Part shown: positions 3,362-36,944 of the stretch, in pieces
Position numbering within the stretch: the stretch's first letter is position 1
How the letters are laid out: the number at the start of each line of letters is the position of its first letter
From: Hyphomicrobiales bacterium
GTDB taxonomy: Bacteria > Pseudomonadota > Alphaproteobacteria > Rhizobiales > JAJFHB01
Length of the DNA stretch: 36,944 nucleotides
Assembly: GCA_021775615.1 (NCBI GenBank)
Contig: JAJFHL010000018.1
Location: 1-36,944, forward strand
Reading direction: 5' to 3'
The notes under the pieces: generated by a model
Told to the model about the DNA's origin: nothing
Databases searched by the model: none
What the model saw: only the letters and a program-made list of their open reading frames with translations
Program-made: the position numbers and the translations under genes

Positions 3362-4243
3362 TTGAAGCTTGTCATGACACTGCTGGTTCGCGACGAGGCG
3401 GACATCGTGCGCGACAACATCGAATTTCATCTTTCCCACGGCGTCGACTTCGTCGTGGCGACCGACAACGGCTCGCGCGACGAGACCGCCGACATCCTTG
3501 CTGAGTACGAGCGCCAGGGCACCCTCAAACTGCTGCACCAGCCAGAGCACAACTTCGCGCAGAGTGATTGGGTTACGCGTATGGCGTTTCTGGCCCGCGA
3601 CCACTACGGTGCCGACTGGATCCTGAACAATGATGCCGATGAATTCTGGTGGCCGCTCCATGGCGACCTGAAGCACGAGCTGCACAGTGCTACACAGGGT
3701 GTCTTAAATTGTCAGAGACAGAACATGCTGTACGCATTTGACACCGAGACCGATGACCCCTGGTACAGACGCCTGATCTATGCAGCATCGGATCAGCAAC
3801 CCCTTCCTCCGGCGAACACCGCGCCGCGCGATCGGTTGCCTGATCCGCTATACTACTACCGCCTGCGGCAGAAGGTCCTGGCGTCCGCCGACGGATTGAC
3901 GCGCGTCGGCATGGGGAACCATGCGGTCAAGCATGAAAGTCCGGTCCCCGAATACGCTTCGCGCATACGCATTTATCACTTCCCGGTCAGATCACGTGCG
4001 CATCTGCGCCGGAAGATCATAAACGGAGGCGAAGCTGTCGCTCGCAACACTGACCTGCCGGTCAAAACCGCCAGCCACTGGCGCAGGTGGCACTCAGATC
4101 TCTCGCAACACAATGATATCGACCGGATCATGACGCAAATCCTTCCCGATACCGGCCGGCTGCAAGGCGACATTGCCGCTGGCCGTCTGGTCGAGGATCC
4201 AACACTTGCCGATTGTCTGTCAGCCCTGCGGTCAACCCGATAA
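3362..4243 (+). CDS. Glycosyltransferase, family 2-like (Glyco_tranf_2_4 type)
   Basis: A cytoplasmic transferase of 293 residues expected to move a sugar onto a glycan or lipid acceptor; donor and acceptor are unknown. The protein starts MKLVMTLLVRDEADIVRDNI, the usual opening of this family. It then has ATDNGSRDET (nucleotide-sugar strand) and LNNDADEFWWP, a DxDE-type metal and substrate motif at about residues 92-101. The frame is open from 3167, which would add 65 residues with no family character. I place the start at TTG 3362 because an exact AGGAGG (3350-3355) lies six bases upstream and the product then aligns with the family N-terminus. It is divergent from the RmlC-like gene and convergent with the DapB homologue. 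Confidence 0.85.
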   Translation: MKLVMTLLVRDEADIVRDNIEFHLSHGVDFVVATDNGSRDETADILAEYERQGTLKLLHQPEHNFAQSDWVTRMAFLARDHYGADWILNNDADEFWWPLHGDLKHELHSATQGVLNCQRQNMLYAFDTETDDPWYRRLIYAASDQQPLPPANTAPRDRLPDPLYYYRLRQKVLASADGLTRVGMGNHAVKHESPVPEYASRIRIYHFPVRSRAHLRRKIINGGEAVARNTDLPVKTASHWRRWHSDLSQHNDIDRIMTQILPDTGRLQGDIAAGRLVEDPTLADCLSALRSTR

Positions 4244-6424: not shown

Positions 6425-6629
6425 CCGCGCCGTTCCTGAAGGCGCATGATCGTCGTCAGGCCGCCCTGCACATGGAGCATCCGGCGAACGGATCATCCGG
6501 GAGGCAGGGGGGTCAACACCCGCCAGCGAGTTTCGCCCGCGGGTGCATTTTGCGTTGAGCTGGTCTTTGCGCCAAACTGATCTGAGACCTGATGACAGGC
6601 CGCCGAAGGAACCGAAGAGAAACGAGCAT
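6425..6629 (+). other. Structured 5' leader of ffh
   Basis: The intergenic stretch 6301-6629 has no convincing gene. Within the presumed leader there is a nested fold: CCCTGC (6464-6469) can pair with GCAGGG (6504-6509), enclosing a hairpin ATCCG/CGGAT (6479-6483 with 6489-6493). I looked for the conserved 4.5S SRP RNA tip (GGAAGGAAGCAGC) and did not find it, so I do not call ffs here. Its role, if any, is unknown. Confidence 0.35.
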
Positions 6630-35699: not shown

Positions 35700-35785
35700 T
35701 GGTGGGCAGGGGAGGAATTCGCACCTCCACAGCGCATAGGCGGGTGTTTTACAGACACTTGGGCTCACTCGTGCCCAGCCTACCC
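35700..35785 (-). tRNA. tRNA-Tyr(GTA), divergent
   Basis: An 86-base cloverleaf with encoded CCA. Acceptor GGGTAGG/CCTGCCC pairs fully (one G-U). The D stem is GGGC/GCCC. The anticodon arm has four of five pairs and loop CTGTAAA, so the anticodon is GTA (Tyr). The variable arm of 14 bases has a short CGC/GCG stem, as expected for class II. The T stem GGAGG/CCTCC encloses an eight-base loop TGCGAATT instead of seven-base TTCRANN, so position 55 is G. These departures make it a low-scoring but structured gene. It could be an acquired extra copy or a decaying one. Confidence 0.65.
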
Positions 35786-35900
35786 TTTCTGTCGCACCGC
35801 ACTTTGGGATGGTCGCAGACGGTTTCGCACTCCGTCGCGAGGTGTCGGACCACGCCGCGCCGGACTCGACCGGATGTTGCCGCACGGCTATTCTTGCTCG

Positions 35901-36710: not shown

Positions 36711-36785
36711 TGGTCCTGGGCCGGGGAATCGAACCTCGTCCTCCGCAGTCACAGTGCAGCGTGCAACCAGTTCTCCTGACCCAGG
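36711..36785 (-). tRNA. tRNA-His(GTG)-like gene
   Basis: A 75-base element with encoded CCA. Acceptor CCTGGGT/GCCCAGG pairs over seven positions (one G-U). Anticodon stem CTGCA/TGCGG encloses CTGTGAC, giving anticodon GTG (His). T arm CGAGG-TTCGATT-CCCCG has one A-C mismatch. The D loop keeps A14 and G18G19, but the D stem GGAG/GCAC has only one pair. There is no G at -1 and position 73 is A, which agrees with the known alphaproteobacterial exception for tRNA-His. It is separated by two bases from the next tRNA-like unit. Confidence 0.6.
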
Positions 36786-36787
36786 AT

Positions 36788-36869
36788 TGGACCGCGCGGC
36801 AGTATTCGAACCTGCATTTTCAACTCCGTTACGCTTACCAGGGTAGAAGCCCGTTGCGGTTACGCGCGG
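36788..36869 (-). tRNA. tRNA-like gene, possible Arg(TCT), with no normal D arm
   Basis: An 82-base unit with encoded CCA and T73. The acceptor CCGCGCG/CGCGCGG is a perfect seven-pair stem. The T arm is GCAGG-TTCGAAT-ACTGC with one G-A mismatch. The best anticodon arm is ACGGG-CTTCTAC-CCTGG (TCT, Arg; four pairs including one G-U). This leaves only eight bases where the D arm should be and a 22-base variable region. An alternative local hairpin GCTT/AAGC overlaps this arm, so the anticodon assignment is uncertain. One base separates it from the next unit. Confidence 0.45.
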
Positions 36870-36870
36870 C

Positions 36871-36944
36871 TGGAGCCTCTGACAGGACTCGAACCTGCAT
36901 CTTCCTTCCGATTACCCTGCTCCGCGTTCGTAGCGCGGGGGGAT
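36871..36944 (-). tRNA. tRNA-like gene, possible Arg(ACG), 5' part outside the window
   Basis: The 3' part of another tRNA unit with encoded CCA and T73. T arm GCAGG-TTCGAGT-CCTGT is complete (one G-U). Anticodon arm CCGCG-CTACGAA-CGCGG has five perfect pairs and anticodon ACG (Arg). The variable region is 23 bases, far longer than the four or five of normal tRNA-Arg. The acceptor 3' strand is CAGAGGC; its partner and most of the D arm lie beyond the right end, so acceptor pairing cannot be checked. Confidence 0.55.

Follow-up and report, generated by a model that had tools for sequence, protein, structure and literature searches.

The window analysed here, the whole 36,944-nucleotide (nt) stretch of contig JAJFHL010000018.1 from a Hyphomicrobiales bacterium (assembly GCA_021775615.1), carries three packed transfer RNA (tRNA) units, A, B and C, at its contig end, where they adjoin ordinary bacterial genes; relatives are found in phage arrays and in a prophage. 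The subject of this work is unit B, which lies one to two bases from units A and C, with a single base (36870) between it and the CCA of the upstream unit A. Both arginine units, A and B, lack a D arm. Judging from comparative analysis of sequences, unit B very probably belongs to a widespread family of D-armless arginine tRNAs found mainly in the tRNA arrays of tailed phages.

Read 5' to 3' (36869-36788, minus strand), unit B is CCGCGCG TAACCGCA ACGGG CTTCTAC CCTGG TAAGCGTAACGGAGTTGAAAAT GCAGG TTCGAAT ACTGC CGCGCGG T CCA (Table 1). As the initial annotation had described, a perfect seven-pair acceptor and a T arm are present, and just eight bases, read here on the minus strand as a connector, separate the acceptor from the anticodon stem. 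The anticodon loop, CTTCTAC, has 7 nt with U33, a purine at position 37 and the arginine anticodon UCU, and the variable (V) region is long (22 nt, TAAGCGTAACGGAGTTGAAAAT). All the elements that characterize the family were found in unit B, namely the connector:V helices P2 (AAC:GTT) and P3 (CGC:GCG), the TAACGGA bulge and the T arm.

Table 1. Coordinates of the predicted tRNA units at the contig end and of the parts of unit B.
Feature	Coordinates	Strand	Remark
Unit B, predicted D-armless tRNA-Arg(UCU), 82 nt including the encoded CCA	36788..36869	-	Subject of this study
Unit B, acceptor 5' strand CCGCGCG	36863..36869	-	7/7 Watson-Crick pairs with 36792-36798
Unit B, 8-nt connector TAACCGCA in place of the D arm	36855..36862	-	U8; A9-A10-C11, 5' strand of P2; C12-G13-C14, 5' strand of P3
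Unit B, anticodon arm ACGGG CTTCTAC CCTGG	36838..36854	-	Anticodon UCU at 36845-36847; outer pair A.G unformed
Unit B, GCG, 3' strand of helix P3	36832..36834	-	Partner C12-G13-C14
Unit B, putative relocated D loop UAACGGA	36825..36831	-	Seen in the 30-member alignment and the motif-blind scan; putative equivalent of A14 A15 n G18 G19 A20, the A20 assignment resting on canonical phage Arg tRNAs
Unit B, GTT, 3' strand of helix P2	36822..36824	-	Partner A9-A10-C11
Unit B, T arm GCAGG TTCGAAT ACTGC	36799..36815	-	Last pair G53:A61 mismatched
Unit B, acceptor 3' strand CGCGCGG, discriminator U73 and CCA	36788..36798	-	
Unit A, predicted D-armless tRNA-Arg(ACG), 7-nt-connector subtype	36871..36944	-	5' acceptor lost at the contig end
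Unit C, tRNA-His(GTG), D region of normal length, D stem barely paired	36711..36785	-	ARAGORN; Rfam 24.8 bits, below the tRNA cut-off

Unit B was missed by ARAGORN, which calls only the His unit of the array. The Rfam tRNA model (RF00005) at its gathering score reported none of units A to C; unit A reached 20 bits against a gathering score of 29, and unit B was unlisted even at E<=1. No transfer-messenger RNA (tmRNA) was reported by ARAGORN in the window, and the 82 nt of unit B are not tmRNA-like in size. Folding of the window units one sequence at a time was uninformative; for unit B (z -0.24) other structures resulted. The unit was recovered by a covariance model, R3, built from 29 relatives that all lie outside the window: unit B scored 58.6 bits (E 1.6e-12) and unit A 72.1 bits (E 6.8e-16). 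Modelling with D-armless relatives, a check proposed in the initial annotation, detects the unit.

A covarying fold without a D arm

The fold was examined in an almost gap-free alignment of 30 members with an 8-nt connector, including unit B and the unit of phage phiCbK. RNAalifold, unaided, returned the acceptor, anticodon and T arms together with the connector:V helices (P2 and most of P3). The acceptor helix was paired throughout (100%), and each of its 7 pairs had both-side changes. P2 (A9-N10-N11 with N-N-U) was 98.9% paired and P3 (C12-N13-N14 with N-N-G) 86.7% paired, both with compensatory changes (G-C, A-U and U-A at position 10; C-G, U-A and A-U at 11; G-C, C-G and A-U at 13). Over the whole structure 96.7% of cells were paired, compared to 37-46% in slid controls, and 208 cells were changed on both sides, compared to 54 in shuffles. 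For P2 and P3 alone, 92.8% of cells were paired (75.9% shuffled, 22-34% slid) and 34 had both-side changes (10 in shuffles); these shuffle tests are inflated by kinship among the aligned sequences. The V region has no stem of its own and pairs with the connector instead.

The 7-nt-connector subtype was aligned separately (29 sequences). It has a C11-G38 pair and a covarying 12-37 pair (20 C-G, 7 G-C, 1 A-U), and its P3 was 73.6% paired with a covariation score of 0.33 vs 0.06. RNAalifold gave no D arm in the alignment of 30 nor in that of 29 relatives; a fold with a standard D arm, named in the initial annotation as a refutation, was not seen there, and the compensatory changes that it had advised seeking among homologues were found in P2 and P3. 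When the phage sequence L161 was folded singly, its minimum free energy structure was the D-less fold. The covariation shows a predicted architecture in which a 7-8-nt connector stands where the D arm would be and pairs with the enlarged V region through short helices.

A possible second D-less architecture, with connector pairing in the V-arm loop of some UCU, Tyr and Cys units, did not reach significance against shuffling (4.19 vs 3.90 shuffled, maximum 4.35). Its candidates (L339, L375, L348, L443, L118 and others) form a small set with 9-10-nt connectors complementary to sequence inside the V-arm loop, which would make a pseudoknot.

A putative D loop 3' of the anticodon arm

A bulge, UAA-n(1-3)-GG-A, separates the 3' strands of P3 and P2 and is nearly invariant, blind scans included. 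The D loop of a canonical tRNA reads A14 R15 n n G18 G19 n20, and A20 is a major identity element for the E. coli arginyl-tRNA synthetase (ArgRS). Given that the bulge (UAA-nn-GG-A) matches the canonical D loop, we infer that it is a D loop moved, with its GG and its A20, from the 5' to the 3' side of the anticodon arm. Canonical phage Arg tRNAs encoded at the same loci have A directly after GG in 195/203 cases, compared to 357/4039 (9%) for other isotypes. In unit B, the GGA within the bulge would supply the A20 equivalent, to judge from its position.

The connector strand would thereby hold the relocated D loop by pairing with both its flanks, the GG of the bulge would contact the T loop as in a normal elbow (G18-Psi55 and G19-C56), and the A that follows would present A20 to ArgRS.

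A family common in phage tRNA arrays

IMG/VR was first searched with a pattern derived from the V region, with fixed GTAA and GGA and no constraint on acceptor or anticodon. It returned at least 85 matches, nearly all with a 7/7 acceptor 80-84 nt upstream, and among the matches listed at least 69 distinct units, all with Arg anticodons, one of these once a parsing shift of one base had been set right. The phage-family pattern occurred 85 times in 0.71 megabases of phage DNA, which came from loci chosen because they contain it, and dinucleotide shuffles of that DNA gave 0 occurrences. Motif-blind scans, which required only an anticodon loop and, at a distance of 26-34 nt, a T loop, are free of the GTAA/GGA bias of the pattern. 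In these, 81/83 structured matches with ACG and 91/101 with UCU were D-less, compared to 14/84 in the Tyr control, where 70 true class II tRNAs retain the D region. All 81 blind D-less Arg(ACG) units carry UAR-n1-3-GG, followed by A in 78.

In total, this architecture (class A) numbers at least 215 distinct sequences, mostly from phage tRNA arrays and 79-85 nt long. Among those listed, 213/215 have an Arg anticodon (ACG, UCU, UCG, CCU, CCG or GCG), the other two having CTT and GAT. The CTT unit (Lys codon) lies in phage locus L157 (10999) beside D-less Arg units with CCT, TCG and TCT; its one-base anticodon change could reflect a reassigned tRNA or an error. ARAGORN calls overlap just 5/201 D-less units, and the Rfam tRNA model misses the family as well. 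Named phages with the ACG unit are phiCbK (Caulobacter crescentus), Ccr10, XacN1, RHph_I1_18 and Vibrio PG07, and the UCU unit is carried by Pseudomonas Bitten and Boevelstad and by Microbacterium Pumpernickel; none of these has a feature annotated at the D-less site. In Streptomyces phage Mildred21 (L520 401-476) a D-less Arg(UCG) is recorded as tRNA-Phe(gaa).

T5-like phages of E. coli and Salmonella (L223 1470-1544, L224 970-1044, L528-L530) also have a conserved element related to the V region and T arm. The match spans 33 nt, with about 97% identity in the listed records, but the element has no usable 7-nt anticodon loop. Its acceptor is intact in Tequintavirus and broken in Epseptimavirus, and it was excluded from the family counts; it is possibly a non-decoding derivative.

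Bacterial and prophage relatives

Parallels to the window array were found in other bacteria. On the Sinorhizobium meliloti megaplasmid CP050513 the order is D-less Arg(ACG), canonical Arg(UCU) and His(GTG), as in the window, with a Tyr(GTA) unit like the one at 35.7 kilobases in the window just upstream; PLSDB lists no genes for this array. Across its 74 nt, unit A shares 77% identity with the S. meliloti unit, which is unannotated. Rhizobium rosettiformans carries Arg(ACG, D-less)-Arg(UCU)-His-Trp inside a longer array, so that the ACG-UCU-His order is common to all three. A solitary D-less Arg(UCU) occurs in a prophage of Devosia elaeis, which belongs to the same order as the window genome, with an integrase and a tape-measure protein nearby.

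BLAST of the window array against plasmids and phages gave chiefly T-arm matches, yet yielded the S. meliloti array. When 397 genomes of the order were searched with a 3-sequence model, scores of normal tRNAs rose to 40 bits, and only one true relative, that of Devosia, was found outside the own genome. The V-region pattern gave 18 matches in the genome collection, 11 of them true (acceptor 6-7 of 7); in the remaining 7 the acceptor had at most 6 pairs and the rest of the architecture was absent in all. Unit B is probably phage-derived and may be a slowly decaying copy. The UCU copy and the adjacent ACG copy would then represent an integrated, partly decaying remnant of a phage-type array in this bacterium.

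Proposed decoding role and alternative explanations

The joint occurrence of D-less and canonical isoacceptors was examined in 214 phage loci, each with 8 or more ARAGORN tRNAs; related loci were taken as independent, and the loci often contain only part of an array. For Arg(ACG), both forms were found together in 2 loci, the D-less form alone in 60, the canonical form alone in 65 and neither in 87 (Fisher p 5e-10). For Arg(UCU), the corresponding numbers were 2, 20, 84 and 108 (p 0.001). Moreover, in arrays with 20 or more tRNAs (20-27 others), the D-less gene can be the sole Arg gene (L093, L127 and L160, for example), the sole ACG gene or the sole CGN reader (L117, L088). Mutual exclusion for Arg(ACG) and the presence of the D-less gene as sole Arg gene fit a tRNA that decodes, and suggest that the D-less and canonical forms share one decoding job. 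The D-less RNA would be charged by the host ArgRS and would read CGN or AGR codons in infected cells, taking the place of the cloverleaf isoacceptor. An artificial D-armless tRNA-His is accepted by E. coli HisS, EF-Tu and ribosomes (PMC11551756).

Several points weigh against the overall interpretation. P2 was not resolved in the 29-sequence alignment of the 7-nt-connector subtype, and the contact between the putative relocated D loop and the T loop is suggested by invariant bases rather than by covariation. Unit B itself is the only sequence of the 30 with a broken G53:C61 pair in the T stem, owing to its G53:A61 mismatch, and the outer pair of its anticodon stem is A.G, a pair that about one-third of the family lacks as well. 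The kinship and incompleteness of the loci in the exclusion counts belong here too.

It is unlikely, in our estimation, that unit B is a decaying canonical tRNA-Arg that chanced to lose its D arm. Such a history would account for the T-stem mismatch and for the broken D stem of the His neighbour, and the equivalent Arg(UCU) in two related arrays, those of S. meliloti and R. rosettiformans, is a normal cloverleaf. However, the D-less layout and its covarying helices are common to more than 200 distinct sequences with intact stems, and the model without window sequences still detects unit B; decay is applicable to the window copy alone and not to the architecture. The initial annotation had left the choice between a decayed gene and a truly reduced tRNA, and at the family level the conserved homologues with compensatory changes favour the latter; its decay option survives only in so far as the window copy and its array look partly decayed. 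That unit B is an ordinary class II tRNA with a long variable arm, or a normal tRNA whose 5' end was misplaced, is scarcely credible. Its V region has 22 nt and single-sequence folding gives other structures, but one 5' end alone, a base from the upstream CCA, gives the 7/7 acceptor, as the initial annotation had noticed. Furthermore, the V region pairs with the connector rather than forming its own stem, and in the blind scans the 70 true class II Tyr tRNAs keep the D region that 81/83 ACG matches do not have.

A further explanation is that the family is a non-decoding tRNA mimic, acting as a decoy or sponge for host nucleases or synthetase or as a regulatory RNA. Phage tRNAs do serve in counter-defence (PMC10264068, PMC11555353) and the related T5-like element has lost its anticodon loop, whereas the family comprises several Arg isoacceptors with normal anticodon loops, has kept the A20 equivalent and the encoded CCA, and seldom occurs together with the canonical isoacceptor, which is consistent with one decoding job for both; we regard a mimic as improbable, slightly more so than decay of unit B. 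That the Tyr/His/Arg set serves to protect against colicin-type anticodon nucleases was abandoned as the main explanation, since only Arg units occur among the phage relatives. As to why the fold persists, tolerance and escape from host nucleases are candidate reasons. It is possible, if doubtful, that a second tRNA architecture arose in phages, its D loop shifted to the 3' side of the anticodon arm and its elbow re-formed from there, and that phages kept it for arginine because it remains a good substrate of ArgRS and ribosome yet escapes host enzymes recognizing or cleaving cloverleaf tRNA-Arg.

Comparison with known systems

The family resembles canonical phage and bacterial tRNA-Arg in its 7-base-pair acceptor, CCA, T arm, U8, 7-nt anticodon loop with Arg anticodons, D-loop-like A A n n G G A including A20, U/G/A at position 73 and location in phage arrays. 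It differs in lacking a D arm, in its 7-8-nt connector and in the apparent D loop 3' of the anticodon arm, bulged in the connector:V helix. Permuted and split tRNA genes of archaea and algae likewise have tRNA parts in rearranged order, but these are processed to a cloverleaf, whereas here the parts are reordered within one uninterrupted gene, bounded by its own acceptor strands and CCA. The tRNA-like domain of tmRNA has a D loop without a normal D stem, touching the T loop. Unlike tmRNA, the family has an anticodon and no mRNA-like part or tag reading frame, and the D segment lies 3' of the anticodon arm and not 5' of it. To our knowledge, bacterial tRNAs have been thought always to be cloverleaves.

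The initial annotation had compared unit B with mitochondrial tRNAs. The short acceptor-anticodon connector and the retained T arm are indeed shared with metazoan mitochondrial D-armless tRNA-Ser(GCU) and with the truncated mitochondrial tRNAs of nematodes and mites. The comparison does not extend to a simple reduction of the mitochondrial type: mitochondrial D-armless tRNAs are Ser or organelle-specific, shorter, and have wholly lost the D loop (PMC7609411, PMC4033280), whereas unit B lies on a bacterial contig and has an Arg anticodon and a D-loop motif, retained 3' of the anticodon arm, in a family of 79-85 nt. Reviews of non-canonical tRNAs list D-armless forms for metazoan mitochondria only (PMC7609411, PMC4033280). 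Mini HisT, the artificial D-armless tRNA-His of evolved E. coli (PMC11551756), is engineered and has no relocated D loop. No description of a D-armless bacterial or phage tRNA was found in the open-licence papers searched, and as far as that literature goes the family is previously undescribed.

The family would be a natural non-cloverleaf exception working in bacterial cells, common in phages and overlooked by tRNA finders. It would illustrate how a tRNA can keep its presumed elbow and synthetase contacts with its parts reordered, and it is relevant to the ways in which phages supply or safeguard Arg decoding; it may also offer a natural scaffold for orthogonal tRNAs. Where Arg(ACG) has been scored as absent from a phage tRNA set, the count is probably wrong. 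The presence of the family in cultured phages, phiCbK among them, makes it testable at once.

Other units in the window and its genome

The tRNA-His of unit C (36711-36785, minus strand) has discriminator A, and its relatives in S. meliloti and R. rosettiformans look irregular too. A tRNA-Tyr(GTA)-like unit at 35703-35790 (minus strand), missed by ARAGORN, has a D stem, a D loop without GG, a conserved A27.C43 mismatch and an 8-nt T loop. Its S. meliloti relative (L051, about 3866-3948) shows the same oddities, plus C1-G72. A second tRNA cluster of the same genome (L033, contig C373, 1881-2680), flanked by FtsH-like and SbcD-like genes named by eye, holds two Ser units, Leu (GAG, TAA, CAG) and Tyr(GTA). 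This Tyr unit looks D-less, with a 10-nt connector (CCCTCC) and GGAGGG within a 31-nt V region. Finally, an ordinary match to the Rfam ffh small RNA (58.3 bits) lies at 6501-6553 on the plus strand of the window.
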